This document shows positions 22,304-42,626 of a DNA stretch of 64,000 bases, piece after piece. The notes under the pieces were generated by a model. It worked only from the letters and a program-made list of their open reading frames with translations. It had not been told where the DNA came from and ran no database searches. The DNA comes from Mycolicibacterium insubricum. GTDB taxonomy: Bacteria > Actinomycetota > Actinomycetes > Mycobacteriales > Mycobacteriaceae. The position numbers and the translations under genes are program-made. Location of the stretch: positions 310,001 through 374,000 of the forward strand of contig NZ_AP022618.1 in the NCBI RefSeq assembly GCF_010731615.1, given 5' to 3'. Position 1 is the first letter of the stretch, and every line of letters starts with the position of its first letter.

Positions 22304-22425
22304 TCAGTTTTTTCCGGTCGGGTTTCCCTCCGCATCCCAGTGCGCGGCGACCTTCTTGCTGGGCTGCACCCGCGGCGGCTCCCCCGGCATCTTCGGATAG
22401 TTCGGTTCTCCGGGTAGTTCAGGGC
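22304..22425 (-). pseudogene. Displaced 3' end of polD1 (left island boundary)
   Basis: The minus strand encodes NYPKMPGEPPRVQPSKK followed by VAAHWDAEGNPTGKN and a TGA. That is the C-terminal signature of stand-alone LigD-type polymerases (YPKMPGEPxRVQPS). No start or catalytic region is present. The polD1-like gene at 41565-42626 loses homology just before this motif (after DMPYPPA), so this piece is best explained as its tail, displaced about 19 kb by island insertion. Homology fades upstream of about 22420, where IS21-type sequence begins. Confidence 0.75.
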
Positions 22426-22441
22426 TGTGCGATTGTGTCGG

Positions 22442-22487
22442 CTCCGGCTGAATCCTGAACAGCCTGCTCCGGCTGAATAGTGAGCAG
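22442..22487. repeat. IS21-type terminal repeats
   Basis: Two 21-bp copies of CTCCGGCTGAATnnTGArCAG lie at 22442 and 22467, 25 bp apart, just downstream of the istB remnant. Multiple terminal repeats of about 20 bp are typical of IS21-family ends. Confidence 0.6.
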
Positions 22488-22489
22488 GT

Positions 22490-22697
22490 TTACGGGGTAG
22501 AGTCTGCCTGACGATCGGCTTCCACGGAGGGCAGTGTGTCGATCGCGGTGTGTTTGATGCGGTAGCTGGAGCCTTTGAGCGCGATGACGTCGGCGTGGTG
22601 GACGATGCGGTCGATCATCGCCGAGGCGATGGTGGCTTCTCCGAAGACTTGACCCCAGCGGGAGAACGGCAGGGCGATTTCGTCGCCCTGGCGGATC
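22490..22697 (-). pseudogene. IstB (IS21 family ATPase) C-terminal fragment
   Basis: About 68 codons on the minus strand encode SRWGQVFGEATIASAMIDRI followed by VHHADVIALKGSSYRIKH and a TAA at 22490-22492. This is the C-terminal end of an IstB transposition helper ATPase. The N-terminal Walker motifs and the istA gene are missing. The coding sequence begins abruptly at the stop codon of the DUF4062 gene, so the rest of the IS was lost by deletion. Non-functional. Confidence 0.8.
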
Positions 22698-23814
22698 AGC
22701 GGTGTAGGTGGAATGCCTCAATCAACCGGCGGCTCAGGATGCCACCGACCTCAGGCGCGCCGGCGTCGAGCGCGGTCACCGTCACTAGTTCGTCGGGCTC
22801 GACCCGTAGCGGCTGGTCCGACAGCTTGAGAAGTTGCGCCGAGCGCCGCGGCATATCGGACACTTTGCCGATCGACAAGGTGCTTACCGGCGCGACACCA
22901 ACGGCGATCGCGACGTGCGCTGACGAGATCGCTTGCGCGTGGCTGATTAACCGCAGCAAGCTCGCGATCTGGAGGGGTAGTTGTGTGGGATCGAGAATCG
23001 ACCCAAGCCCGTCGCGGGGTAGCGACGCCCACGCCGACACTTGGCCGCTGCTGCTGATGCGCAGTCCCAGCGTTCGTCCTTCAGCGGCGGAATTCCACCC
23101 TGTGGGAGGTTCGTCCCCGAACGCCAGATAGATCGCATCCTGCGCAGTGCGCGTATCCAAGCCAGCGCGCTCATCAACCAAACCGCTACGCCGCATGCGG
23201 CCGGCCAACGCATCCCCCACTAGGGCGAGGGCCCGCGCTGATAGCGGAGCTCCAGGCGACGGAAGCACATGGACTTCGAGCGTGGCCGGAGAGAATTGTT
23301 GCCCATGGCCGCCCAGTGCAAATTGGTTGCGCCACTGGATTACCGGCGCCTCAGTCATTGGTGTGAAGTTGAGCGGCCCGCTGGTCTCGGCAAGTTCCCG
23401 GACCTTGCCTGCCACCTTAGTCTGCAACTCCGCGGTGGAGCTGAACGTGTCGCGAAACACGCCTGCTCCGTAGTCCTCGATCTCCGCGACGAACGCAGTC
23501 TGGTCGGCGTCCAGTTCCACGTCCGCCTTGCGGTAGACCACGCGCGGCATTCCTGCCACCGTCGCAGCCATCCATTCATCGTGGGTGGCGGACTGTCCGG
23601 TGTCTTCGAAGACATGGCCGTAATGAGGCCCGACGAGCAGCACATAGGCGTCGGAGCTTTGGACGCCCGCCAGGCACGCTTCCCGGCTCGGCACTGTCTG
23701 TGCGGTGAAGTCCTCAAACTGGACCGGCGTATGGCCGATCGCAGTGATCAGCCCGGGCAGGGCGTCGCGCTCCTCTTCAAGCCCTCGCCGGACGCTACTG
23801 ATGAACACCCTCAT
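22696..23814 (-). CDS. DUF4062-domain protein
   Basis: 372-residue protein. The N-terminal ~110 residues (MRVFISSVRRGLEEERDAL, then VQFEDFTA, VLLVGPHYGHVF, THDEWMAA) are a DUF4062 domain, a TIR/STIR-like fold often fused to effector or NTPase modules in bacterial conflict proteins. The C-terminal ~220 residues are unassigned: a beta-rich/helical region beginning LNFTPMTEAPVIQWRN with no NTPase motif. It overlaps the upstream partner gene by 4 bp (ATGA). The 3' end abuts the istB fragment, so the C-terminus could be trimmed. A defence role is inferred from the island context. Confidence 0.75.
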   Translation of the reverse strand: MRVFISSVRRGLEEERDALPGLITAIGHTPVQFEDFTAQTVPSREACLAGVQSSDAYVLLVGPHYGHVFEDTGQSATHDEWMAATVAGMPRVVYRKADVELDADQTAFVAEIEDYGAGVFRDTFSSTAELQTKVAGKVRELAETSGPLNFTPMTEAPVIQWRNQFALGGHGQQFSPATLEVHVLPSPGAPLSARALALVGDALAGRMRRSGLVDERAGLDTRTAQDAIYLAFGDEPPTGWNSAAEGRTLGLRISSSGQVSAWASLPRDGLGSILDPTQLPLQIASLLRLISHAQAISSAHVAIAVGVAPVSTLSIGKVSDMPRRSAQLLKLSDQPLRVEPDELVTVTALDAGAPEVGGILSRRLIEAFHLHR

Positions 23815-24377
23815 TCGGATCCTCCCGTCATGACCGCCTGCCGCGCGGCGGAGACAAACTCCTCCCAGCGCTCTCGTTTGGCTTGGTCGTCGAACATGGT
23901 GTCGATGCCGACGCTCACCGAGGACCGACCAAAACCGATCTCGATTTCCAGTGGCGTGAAGTCTTCAGCGAAGTCTCCGATCGGCCCAACTCCGGAATGG
24001 TGGTACACCCGCATCACGGCGAAAGACGACGCGGTGCGCAGCGGCAGCATTCGAGCGGTCAGCGCCTTCGGCTCGACGGGCGGCTTTGAAACGGTCCGGG
24101 GTTGTCGGCGCTGCCGGTCTTCGATCGCGTCGTAGCGGTCGGCGTCGAAAGTCGCTTCGACCTGTGTCAGCCCGGACCGCGTGAGCGCCCAGATTCGCCA
24201 GGTCGCCGGAGCCTCCGAGTACTGAGCATGGGACGCCGTGATCTGCTCAACATCACCGACGACGGCGGCAAGCGTCAGCATGACGACGTTAGGCGCAATT
24301 CTAGAGCCGGGACCTGGGAAGTTGGCGGCAGTGGCGTGGCGTATGGCCGTCCGCCACTGGGCCTCGGTGAGTTCCAT
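23811..24377 (-). CDS. Conserved hypothetical partner of the DUF4062 protein
   Basis: 188-residue soluble protein without recognised domains. Predicted features are an N-terminal helix (MELTEAQWRTAIRHATAANF), a hydrophobic strand (NVVMLTLAAVVG), then alternating strands with RIWALTRSGLTQVEATFDADRY and a C-terminal helix (KRERWEEFVSAARQAV). The tight ATGA overlap with the DUF4062 gene indicates one translational unit and probably a complex. About 320 bp upstream (24378-24699) holds no gene I can support. Confidence 0.65.
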   Translation of the reverse strand: MELTEAQWRTAIRHATAANFPGPGSRIAPNVVMLTLAAVVGDVEQITASHAQYSEAPATWRIWALTRSGLTQVEATFDADRYDAIEDRQRRQPRTVSKPPVEPKALTARMLPLRTASSFAVMRVYHHSGVGPIGDFAEDFTPLEIEIGFGRSSVSVGIDTMFDDQAKRERWEEFVSAARQAVMTGGSE

Positions 24378-24699
24378 GATCCCCCTCTGCTCGGATCGCC
24401 AACGCTACCGCCGGCCACCGACAGATCCGCCCCGGGGCGACAGAGTGGCGGTGGATGTCTTACGCGCGTGACGGCCATGGTGGCGAGGTCGCTCTGCGTG
24501 ACCTCGCGTTCTCCGGCCACAGCAGCGACGGCTTAAAGGTCAGAACTCACCACGCCCGGCATTTTCTATTCAGCATCCTGCGGGCGTTTTGGGCCTAGCA
24601 CCTCCTCCACCGAGGTCGACGCTGCCGAATCCCATTACCGGCATGCGCAGATGACGCGAGTTTGGCCTCAACCGAAACTGAAGATGTGTCGGTCAGCTC

Positions 24700-25443: not shown

Positions 25444-25453
25444 CGCTGCGTAC

Positions 25454-25655
25454 TCACTCCCCAATTCTCAAGCTCTTGACACAGGAAGCGCAGAGGGCGC
25501 GTTCGGTGTCGTCGGTGCTGGCATACATGGCGTCGAACAGTTCCGAGGTTCCGTCGGCGCTGCCGGGCCAGAAGTAGTCGTGCAGGGTGCCGAGCTTCTC
25601 TTTGATCTGATGCACCACGCAGTCGGGGTCGAGGCGGGCCAGTTGCCATCAAACA
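25454..25655 (-). pseudogene. 3' fragment of a small unknown gene
   Basis: About 65 codons on the minus strand read ARLDPDCVVHQIKEKLGTLH, then DYFWPGSADG, and end CASCVKSLRIGE with a TGA at 25454. The QIKEKLGTL...CASC pattern recalls a small zinc-binding-like protein family with IKEKFGTLR and a CExCG end. No start codon or upstream homology is visible beyond about 25655, so it is probably a decayed remnant. The rest of the 25444-25821 gap shows nothing recognisable. Confidence 0.4.
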
Positions 25656-25821
25656 AGCACCGGTCGCATCTCGGCAGATCAGCTCGTGCGCGAGCCGGCC
25701 GGGACAACGAGATCTTCGAATCGGTCCAGGATTGGACGCGAGGTGCACCGATTGCCTGGAGACCGCGAGAGTGCAAAGTGGGAGACTGGAGAGCAACCGG
25801 GCCGACGGATCCGAGGTAGCG

Positions 25822-26895
25822 ATGGCAAAGCAGGGAAATGTCGAGGTCCAGGTCGAACCTGAGGGAAGAATGACCCGGACGGTAGAGGTCTCGCACGCCT
25901 CTCGAGTGATCTTTCCCGCGACTGAGACCACACGGGCGATCACCAAACTCGACATGGTCGAGTACGTGGTCAAGATGGCAGACCCGCTTCTCGGCGCACT
26001 CCGCGATCGACCGACGACGCTGGAGCGCTGGCCCAATGGGGTGCAGCCCGGGATGCACGTTGGCCGAGGAAAGGACGCGGCTGGCTTCTATCAGAAGCAC
26101 CTACCTCGGTCGGTCCCCGACTACGTACAGGGCGTCGAGATCACTTTTCCTTCAGGCCGCACAGCGATCGAACTCTGCCCGACCGAACCTGCGGTGCTCG
26201 CGTGGTGCATGCAAATGGGGACGATCACGTTTCATCCATGGCCCGTCCGACGCACGCAGAATCCCGACTCCCTGGACAAGCCTGACGAGCTTCGAATCGA
26301 TCTGGATCCCCAACCTGGAATCCCGTTCGGCGAAACCGTCCGCGTCGCTCTCAAGGCTGGCAATCTGCTGAACGCCCTCGGAATGACCGGGTTCTGCAAG
26401 ACGTCCGGCGGGCGCGGCGTGCACATCTACGTACCGATCACCCCTGACTGGAGCTTCGACGACGTACGCCATGCCGCGATCGCATTCGGCAGGGAACTCG
26501 AGCAACGCGATGACGGGGTAACCACTCAGTGGTGGCGTGAGCTGCGCGGTGATCGCGTGTTCGTCGACTTCAACCAGAACTGCCGTGACCGGACAATCGC
26601 CTCGGCGTGGTCGCCGCGGGCTCGGGAGGGCGCACCGGTATCTACGCCGCTGACTTGGGACGATCTGGCTGGCCTAAGCGACCCCCGTGAGCTGAACGTG
26701 CTCACGGTCCCCAGCAGATATGAGAACAAGGGCAACCCATGGCAGGACATGGACGCGAAGCGATGCACCATCAATCCTCTTCTGGACCTCTGGAACACCA
26801 ATCCAGCCGAGATGAATTTCCCGCCTGACTACCCAAAAATGCCTGGCGAGCCAAAGCGCGTCCAGCCAAGTCGTGACGCGGATCGGCCACACTAG
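25822..26895 (+). CDS. LigD-type DNA polymerase/primase (PolDom), island copy
   Basis: 357-residue stand-alone polymerase domain of the LigD/archaeo-eukaryotic-primase superfamily. The metal-binding Asp pair is in LRIDLDPQPG, the SGGRGVHIYVP motif contacts the nucleotide triphosphate, and the third acidic residue is in VFVDFNQNCRDRTIAS. The N-terminal THLERWP-type region and C-terminal NFPPDYPKMPGEPKRVQPSR are complete. Such enzymes add ribonucleotides or fill gaps during end joining. ATG 25822 follows GAGG with 7-nt spacing. It is a divergent paralogue of the backbone polD1 truncated by this island. Confidence 0.88.
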   Translation: MAKQGNVEVQVEPEGRMTRTVEVSHASRVIFPATETTRAITKLDMVEYVVKMADPLLGALRDRPTTLERWPNGVQPGMHVGRGKDAAGFYQKHLPRSVPDYVQGVEITFPSGRTAIELCPTEPAVLAWCMQMGTITFHPWPVRRTQNPDSLDKPDELRIDLDPQPGIPFGETVRVALKAGNLLNALGMTGFCKTSGGRGVHIYVPITPDWSFDDVRHAAIAFGRELEQRDDGVTTQWWRELRGDRVFVDFNQNCRDRTIASAWSPRAREGAPVSTPLTWDDLAGLSDPRELNVLTVPSRYENKGNPWQDMDAKRCTINPLLDLWNTNPAEMNFPPDYPKMPGEPKRVQPSRDADRPH

Positions 26896-28553: not shown

Positions 28554-28568
28554 CCTCCGTTGTCCCCT

Positions 28569-31500
28569 TCAACGCTCGGTCGTCGCGCTCTCTGCCGACA
28601 CAACTTGGTAGAACCACTTCGCGATGTCAGAAATGAGGTGGTCCCGGCCGGGGGCGTTGGTGAAGAAGTAGTCGCTCATCTTCTCGTGCGCCCCGTGATT
28701 GTCGGCGACGGCACCGGTGACGGCATCGTCGAAGTCGGGGGATTCGATGAACTGCTTGGCGGTGTTCACCTTCGCCTGCTGAACCAGTGCTTGATTCGCC
28801 AGCAGGGTGCTCAGCAACGACTCCACAAACGATTCCTTCTGCGCCTTGGTGAAGTCCTCGGAGCCGAAGAGGTCGTTGAGCCGGTCGAGGACTTGCTGCA
28901 GCGCGACCATGGTGGGGTCCCGTTTCTCCCCAGACCCGGCGGCGGTGACACCAACCAGGCCGACGCGGGCGCTGAGGCCGATGTCGACCCTGCCGCGGTC
29001 AACTTGGGTGACTTTCTTGAGCACCACATCGGACAGGTCGATCGGCGCGGTGTAGTTGTCCGGGCGGATGACCCGTTCCAGCAGCCGCAGGTAGGTCTGT
29101 TTCTTCTCCAGCTCGGGGTCGCCGTAGTCGATGATCTGGGACATGAAGTCATAGAGCCGCACGAACGTTCCGACGTCCTTGCGGAACATGTCCAGCTCAT
29201 CGAGTGCGGCCTTGTCACCCTCGCCGCCATTGTGGATCAACGCCGCATGGTAGCAGTCGGCGAAACGCTTCTTGCCCGGGTCCACCGCGGCCCAGAGAGC
29301 GTTGTTCCCTTTGCCTTTCACATATGCGTCGGCGCACTGGTCGATCTCGGCTTGGGTGTAAATGCCGGCGGTGTCGAGCTTGGCCGACAGGTCGTGCACC
29401 AGGTTCGGGTCGGTCTCGGTTTCCAGGTACGCGTCGGTGTAGTACGGCTCGAAGGCCTCTTGGATCGCGGTGGGTTCGTTGACGAAGTCCACCACCTGGG
29501 TCATGCCCGCGTCCTTCTGCACCCCCGACGGGGTGCGGTACGTGCGGTTGAGTCGGGACAGGGTCTGCACGGCGGTGACCCCGGACAAGATCCGGTCGAC
29601 GTACATGCCGCACAGCAGCGGCTGGTCGAACCCGGTCTGGAACTTATTGGCGACGATCATGATCTGGCGGTCATCACCAGCAAACGCGGTCCGCAGATCC
29701 CGTACCCCCGGATTCATCGTCGTCTCGGAGAAGTCATCCGGCCCGGACTCCGGGTCATGCACGGTGCCGGAGAACGCGACCAGGGTGCCGTAGCCGTAGC
29801 CCTTCTTCGCGATGTAGTCGTCAATGGCGAGTTTGTAGCGGACCGCGGCCTTGCGAGAGTCGGTGACGACCATCGCCTTGGCGTGCCCATCCAGCAGCGG
29901 TGCGACGTTCTCCCGGAAGTGCTCGACCATGATCGCGGCCTTCTGCGAGATGGTCTGCGGGTTCAGCTTCACCCACCCCATCACCGCCTTGGTGGCCTGG
30001 GACTGGTCCACTTCCTCGTCGTGCTTGACGTTCTGCCCGATCTGGAACGCCAGCTTGAACGAGTGATACCCGGTGAGCACATCGAGGATGTAGCCCTCCT
30101 CGATCGCCTGCTTCATCGTGTACGCGTGAAACGGCGCCGGCGGCTCATCCGGTGAAGGCCTGCGCCCGAACAGCTCCAAGGTTTTGGCTTTTGGGGTGGC
30201 GGTGAACGCGAAGTAGGAGATGTTCGCCGACGCCGCACGCTCAGTCGCCTCCGCGGCCAGCACCGCCTCCACATCGATCTCCCCGCCATCATCGATGACT
30301 TTCAGTTCCTCGGCGGTCAAGACGGCCTTGAGCTTGGAGGCGGTCTGCCCGGACTGCGAGGAGTGCGCCTCATCAGCGATAACCGCGAACGTTTTCCCCT
30401 TCAGCCCCTTGTTCTTCCGGATCTCCTCCATCGCGAACGGGAACGTCTGAATCGTGACGACGATGATCAACTTGCCGGCCGTCAACGCCTCCGCCAGCAG
30501 CCCCGACTTCGAGCCGCCGGCTTTGGCGGCCTCATCCCGGTCGATCGCGACGACGATGCCGGCGTCGTTGTCGACCTGCTTAATCGCATCCTGCAGCTGG
30601 GCATCCAACACATTGCGGTCGGTCACCACGATCACCGAGTCGAAGACCTTCTCATCACCGACCTGCAGCCTGGCCATCCGGTGCGCGGCCCAGGCGATCG
30701 AATCGGTCTTCCCAGAGCCGGCCGAATGCTGGATCAAATACCGCTTCCCCACCCCCTCGTCGGTGACCGCTGCGGTGAGGTTGCTGACGGCCTCCCACTG
30801 ATGAAAACGCGGGAACCGCAGCGTCGCCGACTTACTCGTCATCCCGCTGATCGGATCGGTGCGCGTCTCGTGCTTGATGTACATCAGCCGGCCCAGGATG
30901 TTCAGCCACGCGTCACGCTGCCACACCCGCTCCCACAAATACGACGTCCGAGAACCATTCGGGTTGACCGGGTTGCCCGCACCGCCATCCTCACTGCCGC
31001 GGTTGAACGGCAGGAAATGCGTCTTCTCCCCCGCCAGCCGGGTCGTCATCCACACCTCATCGTTGGACACCGCGAAATGCACCAACGCCCGCGCCCCCGA
31101 AACGAACAACGGTTGCACCACACCAGTGGCGGGGTCCTTCGGCAGCCGGGTCGTCTTGTACTGGGTGATCGCGTCCGCGACCGTCTGGGTGAAATCCGTC
31201 TTCAGCTCCGCCGTCGCGACCGGCAGGCCGTTGACGAAGAACACCAGATCCACCGACCGCTGATCGGAGGTGGAGAAATGGACCTGGCGCATCACCCGCA
31301 ACCGCACCGCCACATAGTCAGCGTTGCGCTTGACGTTCAGCGTCGACTCCGGCTTGAACACACACATCTGAAACTTCGCCGCCAGATGCGAAAACCCCTT
31401 GCGGAGCAAATTCAGGGTTCCGCCACCGCTATCCAACGGAGTGTCAAGGACTTTCACGACCCGGTCCAGCAGCTGGGCCTGCTGCTTTGCGATGTCCTTC

Positions 31501-31685
31501 GACCCGGGCTTGACCACCTTCTCCAACTGCTCCGGCTGCGTATCGGCCAACCAACCCAGCACATCCTCCGGAAACAGGGCCCGCTCACGGTCATAGCCGG
31601 CGTCGTTCGGGGAGTACAACCAACCGTGCGCTGCCAGGTGCTCAGCGATCTCCCGCTCGAACTCCACCTCGTTGTGCTGCGCCAC
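28569..31685 (-). CDS. hsdR: Type I restriction enzyme R subunit (HsdR)
   Basis: 1038-residue restriction/translocase subunit. The N-terminal PD-(D/E)xK nuclease shows Asp146 (RSVDLVFFVNG) and Glu160-x-Lys162 (ATAELKTDF). The SF2 motor has Walker A (IQHSAGSGKTDSIAW), DEAH box (IADEAHSSQSG), YFAFTATPK, and motif VI region (ALCGMYVDRIL / TLSRLNRTY). Full length. GTG 31685 is chosen because TAACGT lies 7 nt upstream and the protein then begins VAQHNEVEFERE as in relatives. hsdR is separated from hsdS by a divergent ATPase gene, so it has its own promoter. Confidence 0.93.
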   Translation of the reverse strand: MAQHNEVEFEREIAEHLAAHGWLYSPNDAGYDRERALFPEDVLGWLADTQPEQLEKVVKPGSKDIAKQQAQLLDRVVKVLDTPLDSGGGTLNLLRKGFSHLAAKFQMCVFKPESTLNVKRNADYVAVRLRVMRQVHFSTSDQRSVDLVFFVNGLPVATAELKTDFTQTVADAITQYKTTRLPKDPATGVVQPLFVSGARALVHFAVSNDEVWMTTRLAGEKTHFLPFNRGSEDGGAGNPVNPNGSRTSYLWERVWQRDAWLNILGRLMYIKHETRTDPISGMTSKSATLRFPRFHQWEAVSNLTAAVTDEGVGKRYLIQHSAGSGKTDSIAWAAHRMARLQVGDEKVFDSVIVVTDRNVLDAQLQDAIKQVDNDAGIVVAIDRDEAAKAGGSKSGLLAEALTAGKLIIVVTIQTFPFAMEEIRKNKGLKGKTFAVIADEAHSSQSGQTASKLKAVLTAEELKVIDDGGEIDVEAVLAAEATERAASANISYFAFTATPKAKTLELFGRRPSPDEPPAPFHAYTMKQAIEEGYILDVLTGYHSFKLAFQIGQNVKHDEEVDQSQATKAVMGWVKLNPQTISQKAAIMVEHFRENVAPLLDGHAKAMVVTDSRKAAVRYKLAIDDYIAKKGYGYGTLVAFSGTVHDPESGPDDFSETTMNPGVRDLRTAFAGDDRQIMIVANKFQTGFDQPLLCGMYVDRILSGVTAVQTLSRLNRTYRTPSGVQKDAGMTQVVDFVNEPTAIQEAFEPYYTDAYLETETDPNLVHDLSAKLDTAGIYTQAEIDQCADAYVKGKGNNALWAAVDPGKKRFADCYHAALIHNGGEGDKAALDELDMFRKDVGTFVRLYDFMSQIIDYGDPELEKKQTYLRLLERVIRPDNYTAPIDLSDVVLKKVTQVDRGRVDIGLSARVGLVGVTAAGSGEKRDPTMVALQQVLDRLNDLFGSEDFTKAQKESFVESLLSTLLANQALVQQAKVNTAKQFIESPDFDDAVTGAVADNHGAHEKMSDYFFTNAPGRDHLISDIAKWFYQVVSAESATTER

Positions 31686-31692
31686 GGTGCGA

Positions 31693-31698
31693 ACGTTA
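31693..31698 (-). promoter_or_regulatory. -10 element for leaderless hsdR
   Basis: TAACGT on the minus strand, exactly 7 nt before GTG 31685. Confidence 0.5.
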
Positions 31699-31810
31699 TC
31701 CCAGGTGAGCACGGGGCCGCGGCAACGCAGCACGGTGAAACTGACTGGTCTAACAACCCGGTGGAGCCTCCCGCGCCGCGTTGTTGACGACAGTTGGAGC
31801 TCAAAGGCGA

Positions 31811-32227: not shown

Positions 32228-32346
32228 CCCTGCATGTCAAGGTGAGTTGAGTCCAGTGGTTCATAGCAACCCGCCTGCAGGGCGAGATACGGATCAACCC
32301 GAAGATGACGATTTCCAGCCTGGCTTCCGCCGGGGAGAATGCGCAC

Positions 32347-32739
32347 ATGGATTCAACACGTCCACGTGCTGGTGGCCCGCAGCGGCGGCGCTCGTTTAGC
32401 CCGGCCGACAAGCTCGCGCACCTGGCCGCCTACGAACAGGCCTGCGAGACCAATGATGGCGGTGGTTACCTGCGCCGTGAGGGCCTGTACTCCTCGCTGA
32501 TCAGCGAATGGCGCAAACAGCGCGATGCCGGCGTCCTGGACGGCAAGCCGGCCGGGGCGAAGGTCGGGCGACTCACTGCCGAGCAGGTTGAGATCGCCCG
32601 GCTCAAACGCGAACTCGATAAGACGAACAAGCGGCTGACGACCACCGAGGCGGCCTTGGAGATCATGGGAAAAGCACACGCGCTCTTGGAGAGTCTCTCC
32701 GAGAGCGCGGAGCCGGACAACAAGCCGACGAAGCGCTGA
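32347..32739 (+). CDS. IS3-family transposase OrfA
   Basis: 130-residue DNA-binding subunit. The helix-turn-helix region is SFSPADKLAHLAAYEQACET...GGYLRREGLYSSLISEWR. A leucine-zipper-like coiled coil follows (VEIARLKRELDKTNKRLTTTEAALEIM). Its stop overlaps the orfB start (TGATG), so orfB is translated by coupling rather than by the programmed frameshift common in this family. Start ATG 32347. Confidence 0.85.
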   Translation: MDSTRPRAGGPQRRRSFSPADKLAHLAAYEQACETNDGGGYLRREGLYSSLISEWRKQRDAGVLDGKPAGAKVGRLTAEQVEIARLKRELDKTNKRLTTTEAALEIMGKAHALLESLSESAEPDNKPTKR

Positions 32740-33749
32740 TGGACGCCTGGAATGAGCTACGCACCCACGGGGTCAGCACCCGGGTTGCGGCGGTGTTGAC
32801 CGGCATGCACCGCTCGACGGCGTTGCGGCGGGCCAAGCCGGCTCCGGCGCCGCGCGATCCGGTGGCGCGGGTGCCGGTCAACAAGCTCACGACCGCTGAA
32901 TGCGCGCGGGTCCTCGACGAGCTCAACAGCGCCCGGTTCGTCGACACCACCCCGATGCAGGTGTGGGCCACGCTGCTCGACGAGGACACCTACCTGTGCT
33001 CGATCTCGACGATGTATCGCATTCTGGGCGCCCACAAGCAGGTCAAAGAGCGACGTCGGCTGGCTCGCCACCGCAAGGCGGTCTGCCCGGAGTTGGTGGC
33101 GACTGCACCGCGGCAGGTGTACTCATGGGACATCACCAAACTGGCCGGCCCGGTCAAAGGCGTCTACTACGACGCCTACGTGATGATCGACATCTACTCG
33201 CGTTACATCGTCGGCGTGCACGTGCATGCCCGCGAATGCGGGGTGCTGGCCAAGGAGCTGATGGAGCAGATCTTCGGCACCTACGGCATCCCGCACGTCG
33301 TGCACGCCGACCGGGGCACCTCGATGACCAGCAACAGCGTCGCCGGCCTGCTCGCGGAGCTGGGAGTGACCCGTTCGCATTCGCGACCCAAGGTCTCCAA
33401 TGACAATCCCTACAGCGAGTCGTGGTTCAAGACCCTTAAGTACGCGCCGACATTCCCAGATCGCTTTGAATCCATCCACCACGCAAGAGATTTCATGGAC
33501 TCCTTCGTGGCCTGGTACAACCACGAACACCATCACAGCAGCATCGGTCTACACACCCCCGCAGACGTGTTCTACGGCCTGGCCGCCGTCAAGGACACCC
33601 AGCGACGGATCGTGCTCGCCGACGCCCGAGCACGCCACCCGCAGCGGTTCGGTCGCGATCACGCACCCAAGATCATCGACCTACCCGAGGCGGCCGCGAT
33701 CAACCCACCCAAACCAACCGAACAGGAGGACCAGACGGCAGCCGCATAA
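32739..33749 (+). CDS. IS3-family transposase OrfB (DDE integrase core)
   Basis: 336-residue transposase. The rve/DDE catalytic triad is visible as Asp in VYSWDITKLAG, Asp in VVHADRGTSMTSN, and Glu in NPYSESWFKTLK. The N-terminal HTH_21-like region (STMYRILGAHKQVKERR) precedes it. Full length and apparently intact, so the element may still be active. It lies within the ATPase gene. Confidence 0.9.
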   Translation: MDAWNELRTHGVSTRVAAVLTGMHRSTALRRAKPAPAPRDPVARVPVNKLTTAECARVLDELNSARFVDTTPMQVWATLLDEDTYLCSISTMYRILGAHKQVKERRRLARHRKAVCPELVATAPRQVYSWDITKLAGPVKGVYYDAYVMIDIYSRYIVGVHVHARECGVLAKELMEQIFGTYGIPHVVHADRGTSMTSNSVAGLLAELGVTRSHSRPKVSNDNPYSESWFKTLKYAPTFPDRFESIHHARDFMDSFVAWYNHEHHHSSIGLHTPADVFYGLAAVKDTQRRIVLADARARHPQRFGRDHAPKIIDLPEAAAINPPKPTEQEDQTAAA

Positions 33750-35160: not shown

Positions 35161-36411
35161 TCAAGCGGCCGGGGTAGACACGTCGATCTGACCCGTAACC
35201 GCCGCGGTGATCAACGCTGAACGGCGCTCGCGCGACAACTCGACGAACCGCTCGGCCTCGGCGATCAAGGTGTCGATCTTCGAAGTCTGCTCATCCAGGT
35301 ATGCCGCGATACGCCGCTGCTCGTCGATCGGAGGCAACGCGACAACGAAGTCTGCAAGCACTGGGCGGCGCAGCGACTCCATAGTGACGGTGTTGCTACC
35401 TGCGAGGGCTACGGGACGAAGGAACGTGGAGAGAAACAGATAGAAGTAGCGGCCGAGCACTCCGTGGAAGTCTTTGAAGACATAGACCCGCTGGTGGGCT
35501 TGGAATTTCCCGTCGAAGTAGTGGAAAACCTTGCCCGTCCCACCTTGGCCATCCCCCGGCGTCATCACGGCTTCGCAGTCAAACGAGTAATGGCCGATCC
35601 GAAGGATCTCACGGCCTCGCACATAGAACGGATACTCGCCGTCGTCCGCCGCATTTCCAGAGTCTTCCGAACCGGTCGTAATAGTGCAGAGATACCGCGT
35701 CGGCACAAGCCGCCAATGCGCAGGAATGTCCCCGAGTCTTGAATCACCAGATGCTCGGAGGCCGACGCCCGGCGCCTGACCACGAAGCAAGGTCAGCGCC
35801 ACCAGCGACTGCCGGCGCTCCTGCAACAATTCGATGAGCCTCTGCTGCTCCTCGATGAGGGTGCCGATCCGGGCCGTCTCCCGGTCCAGAAAGTCGGCTA
35901 TGGCACGCTGCTCTTCGATGGGAGGAACGGGGAGCGGCATATTGTCGAGGTCCGGTTGCTGAACTCGGCGATCGAAGGTTGTCTGCGCCCGTGTATACAG
36001 CAGGTACTGATCGATGTACGGCTGGGAACGCACCACGTAGTGCAGGTAACGCGGAGCTATTTCACCGCGGGGCGTGAAGACCCGGTAGTCGGGGCTAACG
36101 GCACCGCGGGCCGCAGATACGCCGATGGCTCCACCGACCAACCACATCGGGTTGACGACGAGTTCGTTCACACCAGCAACGAGATAGCGCGGCAACGACG
36201 CGTCGTCGGGTTCCTGGTTGTTCCCCAACGAAGACCTGAGGACGACATCGCCAGTTGATTTCAGCGACATCATCGGGGCGCTCAGATCTTCGTTGCGAAC
36301 GTTCGATCGCTCAAGGAGGGCCTTGAAACGTCGGACCTCCCATGAAGGAGGAAGGTCGGTCAGCAGCGGCTCAACCGAGCGATGCCGACCGATGAAGCGC
36401 GCAGGTGTCAT
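35161..36411 (-). CDS. hsdS: Type I restriction enzyme S subunit (HsdS)
   Basis: 416-residue specificity subunit with two target-recognition domains. TRD1 (about residues 18-165) ends at PDLDNMPLPVPPIEEQRAIADFLD, followed by the first conserved coiled-coil spacer. TRD2 (about 225-370) ends at FVVALPPIDEQRRIAAYLDEQT with the second coiled coil (IDTLIAEAERFVELSRERR). The repeated PPIxEQR-IA motif marks the pseudo-symmetry. ATGA overlap with hsdM. It recognises a bipartite DNA site not predictable here. Confidence 0.93.
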   Translation of the reverse strand: MTPARFIGRHRSVEPLLTDLPPSWEVRRFKALLERSNVRNEDLSAPMMSLKSTGDVVLRSSLGNNQEPDDASLPRYLVAGVNELVVNPMWLVGGAIGVSAARGAVSPDYRVFTPRGEIAPRYLHYVVRSQPYIDQYLLYTRAQTTFDRRVQQPDLDNMPLPVPPIEEQRAIADFLDRETARIGTLIEEQQRLIELLQERRQSLVALTLLRGQAPGVGLRASGDSRLGDIPAHWRLVPTRYLCTITTGSEDSGNAADDGEYPFYVRGREILRIGHYSFDCEAVMTPGDGQGGTGKVFHYFDGKFQAHQRVYVFKDFHGVLGRYFYLFLSTFLRPVALAGSNTVTMESLRRPVLADFVVALPPIDEQRRIAAYLDEQTSKIDTLIAEAERFVELSRERRSALITAAVTGQIDVSTPAA

Positions 36412-38147
36412 CGAACCTCCACCTCTCGCAGCAGTTCCATGATCTTGGCGACCTGCTTCTCCAGGTCGGCATCAATCTCGGCCAGCGGCCTTGGTGGCAC
36501 GTACCTGTAGAAGTGCCGGGTGAACGGGATCTCGTATCCCACTTTGGTTTTCGCAGTGTCGACCCAGGCGTCGGGGACGTGCGGGAGAACTTCGGCGTCG
36601 AAGTACGCCTTTATAGTCGCCGCGCAGCCGGCGTCGCCATCGGTGTTGCCGCCGTAGGTGAACGGAATGTTCTCGGTGTCGCGTTTCTTCGGGTCCGGTT
36701 TCGGGTTCCCCTTGCGGTCCGTCGACACCTTCCCGGTTTCCGTCAGCAGCGGCCGCTCGACGCTGATGGTCCAGTAACCGAAATCGTTGGCGGTGAACAC
36801 CTTCGAGAAACCGGGATCAGCGTCGTCGAACGCGTCATACAGCGCGAGGATCTTGTCTCGGGCCGCTTCGTCGAGTTCGCGGCTCTTCGCGCCGAGGCTC
36901 TTGCGCATCTTTGTCCAGAACGAGGTGGCGTCGATCAACTGCACCGTGCCGCGGCGCTCCGGGCGCTTGGTGTTGTCCAGCAGCCAGATGTAGGTGGCGA
37001 TACCGGTGTTGAAGAACATATTCGTCGGCAACGCGATGATCGCCTCGACCAGATCAGATTCCAGCAGCCACTGCCGAATCTGCGACGGCCCCGACTCCGC
37101 TGCCCCGTTGAACAGCGGGGAGCCGTTGAGAACGATGCCGGCCCGCCCACCCCCGTCATGCGCGGGCCGCATCTTCGACGCCAGGTGACACAGGAACAGC
37201 ATCTGCCCGTCGCCGATCGCTGGCAGGCCATGGGAGAACCGCGAGCCCTGGTGCAGTGCTTCCTTTTTCACTGCTTCCTGAGCGGCTTTCCAGTCCACGC
37301 CGTAGGGAGGGTTGGACATGCAGAAGTCGAAGGTGCGGTCCCAGAACATGTCGTCGGACAGGGTGTCGCCGAGCCGGATGTTGTCAGCGTCCTGGCCCTT
37401 GACGATCATGTCGGACTTGCAGATCGCATAGGACTGGTCGTTGATCTCCTGGCCGTAGAGCCGCAGCCGGGCGTCGGGGTTGCGTTCCAGCAGCCGCTCC
37501 TCGGCCACCGACAACATGCCGCCGGTGCCCGCGGTGGGGTCGTAGATGGTGCGCACCGTCCCAGGCTCGCGCAGCGCGTCGCCGTCCTCGGCGAACAACA
37601 GGTCCACCATGAGTCGGATCGCGTCGCGAGGGGTGTAGTGCTCGCCCGCCTCCTCGTTGGAGGCCTCGGCGAACTTGTAGATCAGGTGCTCGAACAGGTC
37701 GCCCATCTCAGCGTTGGACACCACATCCGGGTTCAGGTCCACCTTGGCGAACTGCGAGCACACCAGATACAGCCGGTTCTTCTCATCCAGGGTGGCGAGT
37801 TCGTTCTCGAACTTGAACCGCTCGAACACGTCGATGTTGGCCGAAAACCCGGTGGTGTAGTCCATCAGGTTCGCCCGCAGACCCTCGGGGTCTTCCAGCA
37901 GGCGAGTGAAGTCGAACGGGCTGGTGTTGTAGAAACCGAGGCCGGTCTTGCGCTTGACCTGCACAGCCAGCGCACCGTCGGCGTACTTGGCGGCCAGGTC
38001 CCGGACCTCGTCGCGGGTGGGTTCCATGACGCAGTCCAACCGGCGCAGGATCGTGAACGGCAAGATCACCCCGCCGTACTGATGCGGCTTGTACACACCG
38101 CGCAGTTGGTCGGCGATCCCCCACACGAAATTGCCCAGCTTGCTCAA
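36408..38147 (-). CDS. hsdM: Type I restriction enzyme M subunit (HsdM)
   Basis: 579-residue N6-adenine methyltransferase subunit. The N-terminal HsdM domain (FVWGIADQLRGVYKPHQYGGVILP) leads to the SAM motif I (TIYDPTAGTGGMLSVAE) and the catalytic motif IV NPPYGVDW (in FDFCMSNPPYG). TTG at 38147 is chosen: GAGGAGG lies 7 nt upstream, and the protein then begins LSKLGNFVWG. hsdM-hsdS form an overlapping operon. The intact M and S pair could still methylate DNA. Confidence 0.93.
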   Translation of the reverse strand: MSKLGNFVWGIADQLRGVYKPHQYGGVILPFTILRRLDCVMEPTRDEVRDLAAKYADGALAVQVKRKTGLGFYNTSPFDFTRLLEDPEGLRANLMDYTTGFSANIDVFERFKFENELATLDEKNRLYLVCSQFAKVDLNPDVVSNAEMGDLFEHLIYKFAEASNEEAGEHYTPRDAIRLMVDLLFAEDGDALREPGTVRTIYDPTAGTGGMLSVAEERLLERNPDARLRLYGQEINDQSYAICKSDMIVKGQDADNIRLGDTLSDDMFWDRTFDFCMSNPPYGVDWKAAQEAVKKEALHQGSRFSHGLPAIGDGQMLFLCHLASKMRPAHDGGGRAGIVLNGSPLFNGAAESGPSQIRQWLLESDLVEAIIALPTNMFFNTGIATYIWLLDNTKRPERRGTVQLIDATSFWTKMRKSLGAKSRELDEAARDKILALYDAFDDADPGFSKVFTANDFGYWTISVERPLLTETGKVSTDRKGNPKPDPKKRDTENIPFTYGGNTDGDAGCAATIKAYFDAEVLPHVPDAWVDTAKTKVGYEIPFTRHFYRYVPPRPLAEIDADLEKQVAKIMELLREVEVR

Positions 38148-38370
38148 ATGATTCCTCCTCAACACACGTCCCCCGCTCAGCGAGTTTCGCACGAGCGAGC
38201 CCGCTGAGCCGTCAGGTCGACGTCCGCACCCGGGTTCACCGCCAAGGACCTCTCGGCGGCGACCGCAACAACCCCCTGGTCCGAGACGGCCTAGACTCCA
38301 GTCCTACAAGTAGGTCTCCTGTCGACAATTCGGAGTGCGTCGATTCGGCAGGGCAGCCGACGGGAACGCT

Positions 38371-38943
38371 ATGGCCGAAGCACCGGGGGATCGCGATGAG
38401 GGGTTGCCGTCGTCCCTGCAGGAGTACTTCTACGTCTGGTGCGCAGATCTCATCGCTCCATTGACCGGAGGCCAACAGCAACAACTCCTGGATGCCATCA
38501 TGCTCGGGCATTGGGGCGGACCTTGGCCAAGGCGACGACAGATACAGAGACTCGTTGAACAAGCCGCCGGCCTGATCACCTCCGACGCGATCGTCGGGGA
38601 AATCACTGCGCTCTACGGACACAGCGTCGACAAGATGCTGGAGCACCTAGACGATCCGGACTACCCAGCTTCGCGCGAGAACCTCATCCAGCAACTTGGG
38701 CGACACCCCTACACCGATGAGCTGATCCCCAAGGTCGACGCGGCACTCAAAGCCGGCGCTGTGGCTCCGTCCGAGCACCAGGACATCTGCGACCGCGCAC
38801 TGAGAGCGCCGCTCCTTCCTGCCCTGGTTCCCGCGCCACTGCAGTTTCCCGACCTGCCTCGGGACTACCCCGAATCGTTCGATGAGTGTCGTCGGCGTTA
38901 TCCAGATTCAGAAGCGGAATCCCCGGACGCACGGCGCGAGTAG
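38371..38943 (+). CDS. Hypothetical protein
   Basis: 190-residue soluble protein, divergent from hsdM and convergent with the kinase gene. No family recognised. Features: a helical N-terminal half (LQEYFYVWCADLIAPLTGGQQQQLLDAIM; RRRQIQRLVEQAAGLI), a middle with HSVDKMLEHLDDPDYPASRE, and an acidic Pro-rich end (PDLPRDYPESFDECRRRYP). The 38148-38370 gap upstream contains no other gene. ATG 38371 preferred; the frame continues upstream without support. Confidence 0.6.
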   Translation: MAEAPGDRDEGLPSSLQEYFYVWCADLIAPLTGGQQQQLLDAIMLGHWGGPWPRRRQIQRLVEQAAGLITSDAIVGEITALYGHSVDKMLEHLDDPDYPASRENLIQQLGRHPYTDELIPKVDAALKAGAVAPSEHQDICDRALRAPLLPALVPAPLQFPDLPRDYPESFDECRRRYPDSEAESPDARRE

Positions 38944-40203
38944 CGGGAGGATCATCGATCTACGCGGCCCATGAACCAGCCCGGCCAACGGAGGCGACAG
39001 GCCGCAGCTGTCACACCAGCGCTCCGACCCCGTCTCCGTCGAAGGCTTCGATCGCCGCCGCGATGTCCATAACCGACTGATACCGCCGCGCCGGGTCTGA
39101 GTGCGAGCATTTCTGGACGATGTCTCCGAGCGGAGTGCCCTCGGGAAGCAGGTGTCCGACCCCTTGAAAAGGTAGGAGAGCACGAAGCCAACGGCGTAGA
39201 TGTCATTGACCTGCTTGTAGTCCTTGAACGTGTCCAGTGCGGGGTCCACGAAGGTCCCCCGGATCTCGGTCTCGGTCTTCGTGAACTCCGAACCCGACGG
39301 CTTCGCAAGTCCAAAATCAGATAGCTTCACCGTCACCGCGCCCTCAGCGAACACGCGGAGCAGGACGTTCCGCATGCTCAGGTCCCGATGGCAGATATCG
39401 TTCCAGTGCAGATAGTTCAGGCCGTAAAGGAACTGGAGCGCAATCCTGCGACGAGCTTGGAAACCAAACTGGCCCTGATTGTTCCGGCGCTTGACGTACT
39501 CCTCAAGCGTGCTCCCGCAGTACTCCATGACATAGGCGTTGTCGGCATCGTCGTGGCGGTAGACATCGAGGATGTAGGGGAAATCAAGCCCCTTCATGAC
39601 CTCAAACTCACGACGGAACCGCGCTAGGTCTCGCCCATCGGCAGCTTGTTTCAGCTTCTTCCTGGCGAACGTGATGCCGTAATTCGGGTCGGTGAACTTG
39701 TGCACGATCGCGTAGGAACCCTCCCCGACTAGGGTGAGGGCGGCAGTGGAGCGGTCCGCGATCTCAATCGACGCGTCGGCCAATCCGAACACCGCGTCAT
39801 ACTTCTCCACGACGATTGGTGTGAGTCCCTCAGGGATCGGGCTTCCGCCGCTATCCACGAGCCAGGTCGCAGCACCGTCGAGGACACGCTGATACTCAGG
39901 AGCGACGGTCATCGACTGTCCAACCTTCGCCAGCGCTCGCCTGAGCTCATCGACCTCGTCAATCAGGTGGATCAACCTACGGCTGTTCTCAGCGTTGAAG
40001 TGCCCACTAGCTCCGTTTCGCGCCTTCTGGTTGATGAAGTCGAACTCGATGTCGAGCCTCTCGTGAATACAGGCGAACGCCCGCTCTAACGGGACTTGGA
40101 ACCCGAACGAACCCGAGTACATGTCGAGATAGTCATCGTTGAGATAGTCATCGTCGTACTGCCTAACTACCCGCGCGAGCTGCCTCTCCCCCGGTGTCAC
40201 CAC
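38908..40203 (-). CDS. Ser/Thr protein kinase with frameshifted C-lobe
   Basis: The first ~145 residues form an unassigned N-terminal domain; a eukaryotic-type kinase domain follows. Motifs: Gly loop LVGEGSYAIVHKF, catalytic Lys in FARKKLK, HRD as CHRDLSMRNVLL, DFG as LSDFGLAK, and activation segment RGTFVDPAL. After VLSYLFKG the frame turns to nonsense (SDTCFPRALRSE). The +1 frame continues with VGHLLPEGTPLGDIVQKCSH and DPARRYQSVMDIAAAIEAF to a stop at 39011, a normal subdomain XI. A one-base loss in the run of C at 39160-39163 explains it. Real mutation or sequence error. Confidence 0.8.
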   Translation of the reverse strand: MVTPGERQLARVVRQYDDDYLNDDYLDMYSGSFGFQVPLERAFACIHERLDIEFDFINQKARNGASGHFNAENSRRLIHLIDEVDELRRALAKVGQSMTVAPEYQRVLDGAATWLVDSGGSPIPEGLTPIVVEKYDAVFGLADASIEIADRSTAALTLVGEGSYAIVHKFTDPNYGITFARKKLKQAADGRDLARFRREFEVMKGLDFPYILDVYRHDDADNAYVMEYCGSTLEEYVKRRNNQGQFGFQARRRIALQFLYGLNYLHWNDICHRDLSMRNVLLRVFAEGAVTVKLSDFGLAKPSGSEFTKTETEIRGTFVDPALDTFKDYKQVNDIYAVGFVLSYLFKGSDTCFPRALRSETSSRNARTQTRRGGISRLWTSRRRSKPSTETGSERWCDSCGLSPPLAGLVHGPRRSMILPLLAPCVRGFRF

Positions 40204-40246
40204 GCACCCATTCTGGCATCTTGCACCGTCAACTATCGGTGTCGAA

Positions 40247-41644
40247 TCAGCGGCGGAGGTCCGATGATTCGAGCCCTACTAGTAGTACTGTCAGACGCTG
40301 ATGCAGCTGCACCGCCATCGCAAGCGCGAAGCTGAATCGAAGAGAATGCGGCGTCACGGCCAGGGGATCGCCAAGGGGTCCGTCCCTGGACCCAATGGCC
40401 GCCAACAGTCGGTCATTCGCATCGTCGAACACGCCATGCCACGACTCGTGGTGGAATGGAGTCCCCGCCTCGTTGAGCCACAAGGCCATTGGCTCTGGCC
40501 TACCGTCTCGAAGCCAGAAGAGGTTTCTTCTGCCAGACGACGGCAGACTGCTGAGCGACAACACCGTGCCGTCGTCGCACACGGCGTCGAGCGTTCCCTT
40601 CCGAGCAGGCCGAACTTGCCTCACCCAGACAATGTCCTCGAGTGCTTCGTAGCGGCCTTCACGGTGCGCTCGACGAATGGCAGCAGCACGAGCAACCTTG
40701 ACGTAGGTCCGAACCGTGCGCATCACAGTCGGCGCGCCGTACCACATACGTGGCTTGCTGTACTTGGCGATCGTGGCGGGAAGCTTAGCCTCGATCACCC
40801 CGGGATCTGGAAGCTCGGCCAACAAGAGTGACCCTGCCTCCTGGACACGCAGTCCCGTCCCATAGAGGAAATCAGCGAATGCGGCATTGCGTAGCGAGGT
40901 GCGGCCACGAAATGAGTTCTCCTCGACTGTGGCGCGCCAGTGATAGTCCCCAAGCCGTTCGACCCCATGGCCCCGCAATCCGACGTCACGCCACAGCCGG
41001 TACGTGCCGGGCACAATCCAACGATCCCGATCCCTGCGCACATATGGTGCCGTCGCCCGCACGCCAGGGACCCGAAGTGTTCCATTCCCCGGCGGCACCG
41101 GGCTCACCGTAATCACCGGACCATTCGGCCCAATCGGGATCTGCCGGTTCACCGCCCAGTCATAGAGCCCACGAAGCGCAAACACAGCCTTGTTCCACGT
41201 CGATCCTCCGACCGAATCGGGAAATTTCAGATGATCCGTCCGACGTATCTTGTATTCGACGAAGTCATCTTCTGTCCCTTCGAGCCACGTCAATGGTGGG
41301 GACTGTCCACCGAGAAAACCACACCACATCGCAATCTCACGCGCATACGTCTTCCGTGAACTTGCCGACAGCGAAGTGAAAGTCGGCGCCGAACTGCAGT
41401 AACGGACAAGCCACTCGTCAAGTTCACCGTTGCTGGACAGTAGAATTGGCGTCTCCGCCGGCACCCATGCGTCCACACCGGCAGATGGCGCGCATGAATC
41501 AAGCACATCCGAATAGCCGATAGGCCAAGACCGTCGGCCTGTGGTGATGAGGACTGTCCAGTTCTTAGCTGGCGAGGCTGCTGTGAAGATCCTCGTAAGG
41601 TACGCCGAGGTCAGCATCCACAAGCGCTGAACACACCGCCGCAC
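40247..41644 (-). CDS. Tyrosine recombinase/integrase, C-terminally truncated
   Basis: Up to 465 residues; the true start may be downstream, near YSDVLDSCAPSAGVDAWVP. It has a SAM-like core-binding domain (SSRKTYAREIAMWCGFLGG; WNKAVFALRGLYDWAVNR), catalytic Arg in FLYGTGLRVQEAG, and the HxxR box PHSLRFSFALAM. The protein stops about 17 residues after HxxR, so the final His/Trp and the nucleophilic Tyr are missing and recombination should be impossible. The 5' end overlaps the fused 3' end of polD1 at the right island boundary, as expected for an integrase next to its attachment site. Confidence 0.8.
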   Translation of the reverse strand: MRRCVQRLWMLTSAYLTRIFTAASPAKNWTVLITTGRRSWPIGYSDVLDSCAPSAGVDAWVPAETPILLSSNGELDEWLVRYCSSAPTFTSLSASSRKTYAREIAMWCGFLGGQSPPLTWLEGTEDDFVEYKIRRTDHLKFPDSVGGSTWNKAVFALRGLYDWAVNRQIPIGPNGPVITVSPVPPGNGTLRVPGVRATAPYVRRDRDRWIVPGTYRLWRDVGLRGHGVERLGDYHWRATVEENSFRGRTSLRNAAFADFLYGTGLRVQEAGSLLLAELPDPGVIEAKLPATIAKYSKPRMWYGAPTVMRTVRTYVKVARAAAIRRAHREGRYEALEDIVWVRQVRPARKGTLDAVCDDGTVLSLSSLPSSGRRNLFWLRDGRPEPMALWLNEAGTPFHHESWHGVFDDANDRLLAAIGSRDGPLGDPLAVTPHSLRFSFALAMAVQLHQRLTVLLVGLESSDLRR

Positions 41645-42626
41645 ATGTCCACTCCCCAGAGAACGCAGGCGGGTACGGCATGTCGCCGAGGCCGCGCGCG
41701 GCGTCGGCGTCGGCCATCGCCAGCAGCGGCGCCAACGACTGGCGGACGTCGTCGATGCCGGCCCACGGGTCGGTCCGGCCGGCGATGATGCCGTCGGCGG
41801 TGGACAAGGTGAAATCGTCGGGGTCGGCGTCGGCCAGGTCCGACCAGTTCAGCGGCATGGAGACCGTCGCGATCGGGGTCCGGCGCACCGAGTAGGGCGA
41901 CGCCATGGTGCGGTCCCGGGCGTTCTGGTTGAAGTCGATGAAGATCCGTTGCCCGCGCTCCTCCTTCCACCAGGAGGCGGTGACCAGCTCCGGGGCCCGG
42001 CGCTCCAGCTCGCGGGCCAGCGCGATCCCGGCCCGGCGCACCGCAATGAAATCCCAGTCGGTGGCGATCCGCAGATACACGTGGATGCCGCGGCCCCCGG
42101 AGGTCTTCGGGTAGCCGATCAGACCCAGCTCGTCGAGCAGCGGTTTGAGCACGTCGAGGGCGACGGTCCGGGCCTCGGCGAACGCGGTGCCAGGCTGCGG
42201 GTCGAGGTCGACGCGCAGTTCGTCGGGATGCTCGGGGTCGTCGCGGCGCACCGGCCACGGATGCAATGTGACGGTGCCCATCTGGGCCGCCCAGACGATC
42301 GCCGCCGGGCGGGTGACGCACAACGCGTCGGCGGTGCGACCCGACGGGAACACCACCCGGACGGTGTCCAGGTAGTCGGGATGCCTTGGTGACAGCCGCT
42401 TCTGGTAGATCTCCTCGCCGTCGATGCCGTCCGGGAAGCGCTGCAGGTGAGTCGGCCGGTCGCGCAGTGCGGTGAACATCGGGCCCAGCGCGACGCTGCG
42501 GTAGTAGTCGATCAGCGCGCCCTTGCTGCCGGCGGCGCCCAACTGCGGGAAGTACACCTTGTCCCGGTTGGTGATTCGCACGGCGATGCCGTCGACGTCG
42601 ACCTCCTCGGCGGCTGCGGAACTCAT
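41565..42626 (-). CDS. LigD-type polymerase PolD1, C-terminus replaced by island sequence
   Basis: 353-residue PolDom enzyme. Catalytic residues are intact: LRVDLDPQPG, SGGRGIHVYLR and IFIDFNQNARDRTMAS. Homology to the family ends after DMPYPPA (about residue 316). The expected YPKMPGEPxRVQPS tail is replaced by an unrelated ~37-residue end (FSGEWTCAAVCSALVDADLG...) encoded by the island. The lost tail is found at 22304-22425. It overlaps ligC by 4 bp (ATGA) and would work with it in break or gap repair. Activity of the chimera is unknown; the polymerase core is complete. Confidence 0.88.
   Translation of the reverse strand: MSSAAAEEVDVDGIAVRITNRDKVYFPQLGAAGSKGALIDYYRSVALGPMFTALRDRPTHLQRFPDGIDGEEIYQKRLSPRHPDYLDTVRVVFPSGRTADALCVTRPAAIVWAAQMGTVTLHPWPVRRDDPEHPDELRVDLDPQPGTAFAEARTVALDVLKPLLDELGLIGYPKTSGGRGIHVYLRIATDWDFIAVRRAGIALARELERRAPELVTASWWKEERGQRIFIDFNQNARDRTMASPYSVRRTPIATVSMPLNWSDLADADPDDFTLSTADGIIAGRTDPWAGIDDVRQSLAPLLAMADADAARGLGDMPYPPAFSGEWTCAAVCSALVDADLGVPYEDLHSSLAS

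Follow-up and report, generated by a model that had tools for sequence, protein, structure and literature searches.

We analysed a 64,000-nucleotide stretch of the Mycolicibacterium insubricum genome (hereafter the window, whose positions are used throughout) in which polD1, the gene for the polymerase Prim-PolC, is split by an inserted element of about 19 kb. The window lies in a single-contig genome of 4.58 Mb at 100% completeness (G000). The polD1 gene is encoded on the minus strand and starts at 42626; family homology is kept down to 41670, beyond which come a 6-bp hexamer (41664-41669) and then foreign sequence, and the fused frame stops without the family tail. The missing tail is found at the other border of the insertion, on the same strand as the 5' part. 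We took polD1 to be the ortholog of M. smegmatis Prim-PolC (PDB 6sa0 and 5op0), to which it was aligned through its paralog. The C-terminal tail of that enzyme has been named Loop 3 (PMC7442782), and the locus can be described with reference to it as follows.

41670..42626, minus strand: 5' part of polD1 (Prim-PolC), cut before the Loop 3 codons; fused frame continuing to 41565
22304..22405, minus strand: displaced 3' end of polD1 (Loop 3, C-terminus) with the native stop
22400-22405, minus strand: native hexamer CCGAAC, the first 6 bp of the displaced tail
22406..41663: inserted element, 19,258 bp, G+C content 0.62

An empty site is present at the corresponding locus of genome G012 (L064), where both pieces of polD1 join with a 2-base overlap: window 22335-22405 aligns to 8753-8683 and window 41668-43601 to 8684-6748. 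The flanks of the window are collinear with G012 over about 10 kb on the left (10786-20368) and about 3 kb on the right (up to 44616). Both flanks are collinear with G002 (L065) too, where the match stops short of the short tail. The G+C content of the flanks is 0.69-0.70, compared with 0.62 in the insertion. The uninterrupted polD1 codon pattern was detected in 300 of 326 genus genomes sampled (285/300 among the more complete ones), and the same scan found no such pattern in G000. A sequence-only reading of this DNA had proposed that polD1 is split by an insertion of about 19 kb with two definable borders, and that the missing tail lies on the same strand with its own stop codon; the empty site in G012 confirms both. 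That reading had placed the tail at 22304-22425, and the tail is indeed there, but its homology starts at 22405. No island-free polD1 ending like the present gene was found, related genomes having the full tail. The split of polD1 by an insertion and the existence of a family of such elements, described below, are firm.

A second, separate difference from G012 concerns window 20400-22300, which includes a DUF2202 gene (21647-22171) and lies to the right of the collinear left flank, before the polD1 tail; nothing in the G012 locus matches it.

In 6sa0 chain numbering, polD1 is cut at P320-N321, directly before Y-P-K324-M. The elements enter the gene after the Tyr-Pro codons and before those for Tyr-Pro-Lys-Met, and the exchange region spans 6 bp. 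The mapped stretch P320-N321-Y-P-K324 corresponds to residues tested previously: according to PMC7442782, truncations 1-312 and 1-319 filled 1-nucleotide gaps and not 3-nucleotide gaps, P320 and K324 mattered, and Loop 3 was required for filling gaps longer than 1 nucleotide. In all six fused products read (window, L103, L104, G754, G681 and L105), unrelated residues replace this tail. The truncated polD1 of the window has a median ratio of nonsynonymous to synonymous substitution rates (dN/dS) of 0.26, which is higher than in any of the 30 intact genes compared (0.11-0.22). Relaxed selection on this copy is only suggestive, because a high value (0.216) is also seen in its intact sister and the other four truncated copies are not raised (0.14-0.17).

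Element ends and recombinase genes

The border next to the integrase gene is referred to as integrase-proximal and the opposite one, next to the displaced tail, as integrase-distal.

41664..41669, minus strand: integrase-proximal hexamer CCTGCG, which differs from the native polD1 codons and is taken as element-borne
41640..41663, minus strand: integrase-proximal element end TTCTCTGGGGAGTGGACATGTGCG, an imperfect inverted repeat with the other end
22406..22431, minus strand: integrase-distal element end CGCACAGCCCTGAACTACCCGGAGAA (window form)
40293..41587, minus strand: intA remnant, a tyrosine recombinase with about 435 of 521 residues, its catalytic C-terminal end lost

The two ends constitute an imperfect inverted repeat of about 24-26 bp accompanied by 6-bp hexamers. 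The distal end is conserved with small changes in G455, G454, G754, G681 and G643, and proximal ends are likewise conserved, the form TTCTCTAGGAAGTGGCTATGTGCG being found in M. iranicum and G754. The window pair, for which alone the chance level was computed, has an inverted-end score of 12, and 5 of 20,000 random pairs score as high. At all six readable junctions the distal hexamer is the native polD1 codon pair (CCGAAC in the window; CCGAGC in G455, G754 and G681; CCGAGT in G454 and G643). Proximal hexamers are mixed (CCTGCG, TCGGTG, CCGAGC, CGCGGG, CCCGAG and TTCGAC) and equal the native pair in one case of six (M. iranicum, CCGAGC).

The integrase that the sequence-only reading had placed at the right junction is a tyrosine-recombinase gene, but it is truncated near 40293 and lacks its catalytic-Tyr end: about 85 C-terminal residues are gone, and with them the GH and Tyr boxes. 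Relatives of intA show TGLR, HSLRF, LGH and Tyr, which make up the RHRHY set, and the window copy is without the last two. The whole-protein Pfam score for PF00589 is above the cut-off in three of three relatives, whereas the window copy falls below it. When 401 family genomes were first searched, the ten strongest other matches to the window integrase were 34-40% identical. Among named genomes, integrases 66-69% identical were identified in M. iranicum DSM 45541, in Mycobacterium sp. PSTR-4-N and in a metagenome-assembled genome (MAG). All three lie directly behind a polD1 gene cut at the same codons. When the MAG protein was searched against 396 genus genomes, matches of 67-77% were obtained in G000, PSTR-4-N, M. 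iranicum, G681, G754 and G703, with the other matches listed at 38% or less. Five of these six genomes have the integrase in polD1, the arrangement in G681 and G754 being the same as above; G703 does not. A search for this integrase next to polD1 in other genomes, which the earlier reading had suggested as a check, was therefore positive in M. iranicum, PSTR-4-N, the MAG, G681 and G754. We rejected a plasmid origin of the integrase, since plasmid matches were all below 60% identity (29-32% among the 12 records listed of 178).

In the relatives, intA is followed by open reading frames (ORFs) for products of ~563, ~743 and ~172 residues, with overlapping or almost overlapping frames. The first two of these are recombinase-like and the third is small; none of the three was seen in the window. 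Because intA is truncated and its partner genes were not seen, the decayed window copy is probably fixed in place. Read by eye, the second product of the relatives seems to be without the first Arg, and a TGMRGEE...RxxR...GH...Y pattern is present in the third. With shallow profiles, the intA profile gave no match to the second and third products, and these two had only a 62-column N-terminal stretch in common.

We compared this family with known elements as described in PMC10214605 (SEs, Tn554) and PMC5385486 (GInts). SEs share with it the order of catalytic recombinase, recombinase-like protein, large recombinase and small protein, as well as imperfect inverted ends, exchange of a 6-bp spacer and few selected targets. 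Judged by ORF order and size only, an operon like the intA-tfp-intB-srap operon of SEs stands at one end of the element in L103, L104 (G455), L105 and G681; the window copy keeps only part of intA. SE ends are imperfect inverted repeats of 13-19 bp with a 6-bp spacer, the ends here being ~24-26 bp. The polarity differs, the native hexamer being integrase-distal here (6/6) and integrase-proximal in SEs; the mycobacterial hexamers thus resemble the 'fingerprint' and 'footprint' behaviour of SEs with opposite polarity. In PMC10214605, SEs are reported from Gammaproteobacteria only, whereas the present family occurs in Mycobacterium and, unlike SEs as described there, has a cargo that includes a putative substitute for the target gene.

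GInts (PMC5385486) are alike in their three integrase-type genes and small gene at one end, their site-specific insertion, their large and variable cargo including restriction-modification genes and their 6-nucleotide staggered exchange. The ginABCD layout is matched by the four overlapping or adjacent ORFs of the relatives, with weak support for the recombinase nature of the second and third. The gene order and the hosts of GInts, as given there, differ from those of the present family: it is GinC that is described without the full catalytic set, whereas here the second product seems, by eye, to be deficient. GInts have imperfect direct repeats of 10-17 nucleotides; what was seen at both borders here is a short match, TACCCG, besides the 6 bp of the exchange region. 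Six GInts at ssb are described as overlapping the gene end and leaving the product unaltered, whereas the insertion in polD1 removes Loop 3. According to PMC10214605, Tn554 also combines a recombinase set and a small protein with imperfect inverted ends and a 6-bp footprint. This likeness is one of description. The target of Tn554 is radC, and we know of no replacement gene in Tn554. Taken together, the present element works like SE, GInt and Tn554 elements and is filed as none of them; it is not assigned to SEs or GInts because the SE polarity and the GInt gene order that we tested do not apply to it.

A cargo polymerase with a complete Loop 3

25822..26895, plus strand: Prim-PolC-type cargo polymerase, 357 residues, with a complete Loop 3

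The sequence-only reading had regarded everything between the borders as accessory and the insertion as a defence island. Type I restriction-modification genes are present, but so is this complete polD paralog, which ends in the same PKMPGEP tail; defence genes vary between members, and the shared cargo is the putative substitute polymerase. The protein matches Pfam LigD_Prim-Pol (5.4e-80), aligns to 6sa0 over 329 residues through Loop 3, including PKMPGEPxRVQPS, and is ~50% identical to polD1. It resembles M. smegmatis Prim-PolC in Loop 3 and differs from it by a 10-residue insertion near residue 75 and at the N321 position. A polD1 query of G000 returned three matches only (polD1, the island copy and a LigD-type protein) and no core polD2, so the cargo gene is the only complete stand-alone enzyme of its type found there. 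We also rejected the possibility that the island polymerase is the core polD2, as eight polD2 rows form their own clade.

The cargo type was found in 8 of the 396 genus genomes (E 1e-105 or better), and Loop 3 is complete in all eight carriers. On the tree, the eight cargo polymerases are united in a single clade (100/100); its neighbour is the type of other genera, and 33 polD1 rows stand apart (99/99). An intact polD1 was seen in none of the eight carriers. Within the 326-genome sample, the intact pattern occurs in 0/6 carriers versus 300/320 others (Fisher p 1.4e-7, a value that is too favourable since the carriers share ancestry and are not eight independent events); no intact polD1 was found in the other two carriers, G754 and G729. 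The cargo gene lies between polD1 and the displaced tail in G000, PSTR-4-N, G681 and G754. The M. iranicum copy is on a small contig, separate from the contig that has the tail and the element end, and G643 is similarly divided between two contigs; neither the 5' part of polD1 nor an integrase of this clade was found in G643. The contig of L105, at 7 kb, is too short to show whether the cargo polymerase is present. Among the 22 of 28 cargo polymerase pairs that gave a value, the median dN/dS is 0.083, a rough estimate because the median dS of 1.76 is near saturation.

Outside the genus, the nearest relatives of the cargo gene are LigD-type polymerases from other genera of the same family (up to 65% identity), in several of which the cargo type is common. 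A 67-kb plasmid of Tsukamurella tyrosinosolvens (NZ_LR134445.1) has a cargo-type polymerase at 59.7% identity (39023-40066), where the underlying features are a DNA polymerase domain protein and an ATP-dependent DNA ligase. Two phage records have a copy of the polymerase at 45% identity.

In two carriers, G600 (L165 4623-5711) and G729 (L166 11583-12671), the island-type polymerase occupies the native polD1 locus, near a stretch matching the window ligase gene at 67-70% and beside collinear left-flank genes. Neither polD1 nor an integrase of this clade was found in these genomes, and a relaxed search for ends found no element remnants beside the polymerase. A completed gene replacement is possible at these loci, for which we infer the order of events.

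Probable substitution of polD1 and alternative explanations

We consider it probable that a family of site-specific elements inserts in polD1 and carries a substitute for it, and that the window holds a decayed copy. On the basis of sequence comparison, the cargo polymerase most likely does the work of polD1. Judging from the anatomy of the elements, a circular form would recombine through the recombinase set at the Loop 3 codons. Insertion would remove Loop 3 and, if the published truncations are a guide, deprive the host of long-gap filling by polD1, which the cargo enzyme would restore, as suggested by its co-occurrence with the broken gene and its conserved Loop 3. Because the cargo polymerase most likely substitutes for the broken enzyme, the insertion would cost the host little, and loss of the cargo would become costly; defence genes would be variable extra cargo. 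More tentatively, and with some doubt, we propose that the element holds its host by this gene substitution and that after decay the foreign polymerase stays where polD1 had been, G600 and G729 being examples, amounting to replacement of a gene across species.

Several observations weigh against substitution. The cargo polymerase has an Asp at the N321 position and only ~50% identity to polD1. The truncated polD1 frame is still open in five of five copies, and its product may still be active on 1-nucleotide gaps. The shared ancestry of the carriers lowers the weight of their number, and the G643, G600 and G729 assemblies are fragmented (250-780 contigs), making missing genes less certain. The inverted-end scores of four other members tested (7.5-10) are below that of the window. 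The ~563- and ~743-residue products are recombinase-like by eye with weak profile support, and a fold model of the third recombinase-like protein was unusable, with a mean predicted local distance difference test score (pLDDT) of 38. The element can also sit elsewhere: G703 has the integrase, an intact polD1 and no cargo polymerase, its element lying in an FAD-oxidoreductase-like gene (L163 about 9342-9570). The integrase-proximal hexamer in G703, CCGAAC, is a sequence used by polD1, and this element may have come from a polD1 site; relatives of the interrupted gene differ at the hexamer. Finally, 20 of the 320 non-carriers are also without the intact polD1 pattern. Ten of these are under 90% complete and seven more are 3.1-3.4 Mb in size; since the remaining G490, G518 and G569 are neither incomplete nor small, polD1 seems to be dispensable in some lineages.

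The cargo polymerase could instead be an ordinary passenger, captured once by an ancestral element, whose coincidence with a broken polD1 merely reflects the insertion site. One capture would suffice to explain the single clade of cargo polymerases, the elements carry much other cargo, and some genomes manage without the intact polD1 pattern. We nevertheless find this unlikely: the polymerase is present in the four polD1 elements that were read from border to border by position (window, PSTR-4-N, G681 and G754) and in two fragmented ones, while the two elements whose cargo was scanned carry different defence genes. It also looks constrained by its dN/dS, in G600 and G729 it occupies the polD1 locus, and the one element found outside polD1, in G703, comes without it. 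A related alternative is that the polymerase was the ancestral resident of the polD1 locus and was captured there by an inserting element, in which case G600 and G729 could represent the origin of the cargo and not the outcome of a replacement. Inside the carrier clade, the copies of these two genomes group with that of the window (97/83), and the direction is not fixed; polymerases of this type are also common in several further genera of the family. The other carriers, however, branch next to G600 and G729 and not below them, and most genus members have polD1 (300/326 with the intact pattern), so that we regard this alternative as quite unlikely.

The tyrosine-recombinase gene at the border would also fit a plain phage-type integration, or that of an integrative and conjugative element, which merely disrupted polD1. 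The four-gene module of the relatives, the inverted ends and the hexamer exchange make this very improbable, and Pfam scans of 16 ORFs of the window island, which are not a full annotation, gave no conjugation or virion family. That an assembly error or a chance rearrangement moved the tail by 19 kb is suggested by nothing beyond the oddity itself and has a negligible probability given the single-contig, complete genome; assembly error is ruled out by the same structure in independent assemblies.

These results bear on both mobile-element biology and DNA repair. The family described here is SE/GInt-like, occurs in mycobacteria and has ends that can be defined; its target is within the functional tail of a conserved repair enzyme, and its cargo matches the gene that the element breaks. 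Other insertions are tolerated because the gene is spared or its end is restored; substitution would add a third solution, and if it holds true, the host comes to depend on an element that supplies its only complete version of the polymerase. Natural Loop 3 deletions of Prim-PolC, paired with putative substitutes, make the role of Loop 3 in cells testable. The finding also suggests how a distant version of a repair gene can displace the resident one between species. A literature search with strict term sets, by which absence is not proven, found no paper that by its title and abstract dealt with the present element or on an element carrying a substitute for its own target.

Other cargo

The remaining features of the window element are as follows.

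28569..31733, minus strand: HsdR-like type I restriction subunit (defence cargo)
35161..36411, minus strand: HsdS specificity subunit
36408..38192, minus strand: HsdM methyltransferase subunit
32305..33749, plus strand: insertion sequence (IS) with HTH_Tnp_1 and rve domains, which we take to be IS3-like
22433..22673: IS fragment, presumably IS21-like, shared with another site in the genome and with the PSTR-4-N element
25499..25645: 147-bp remnant of gene X, a conserved cargo gene of ~200 residues in relatives

Copies of the IS fragment are found at G000:C1:2729227-2729467 (97%) and in the PSTR-4-N element (L104 19373-19610, 94.5%). An IS-mediated insertion of the whole island was rejected: the fragment is set back 27 bp from the distal end and occurs elsewhere in the genome as well, and the element end is conserved in genomes without an IS fragment there. 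We take the fragment as a later insertion near the distal end.

Gene X lies near the polymerase in G455, L114 (4622-5230) and L164 (3269-3871), accompanied in G455 and L114 by gene Y (274 residues). Pfam scans of two copies of gene X and a PADLOC scan of one copy gave no match. The window also has a DUF4062 protein, and the truncated integrase is followed directly by a kinase-like ORF (38908-40203), which has mad6 as its best PADLOC match and whose C-terminal part may be frameshifted. The PSTR-4-N element carries BrxA, BrxB, BrxC, PglX, PglZ and BrxL, a BREX set, and the defence cargo of the two elements scanned is thus type I restriction-modification in the window versus BREX in PSTR-4-N.

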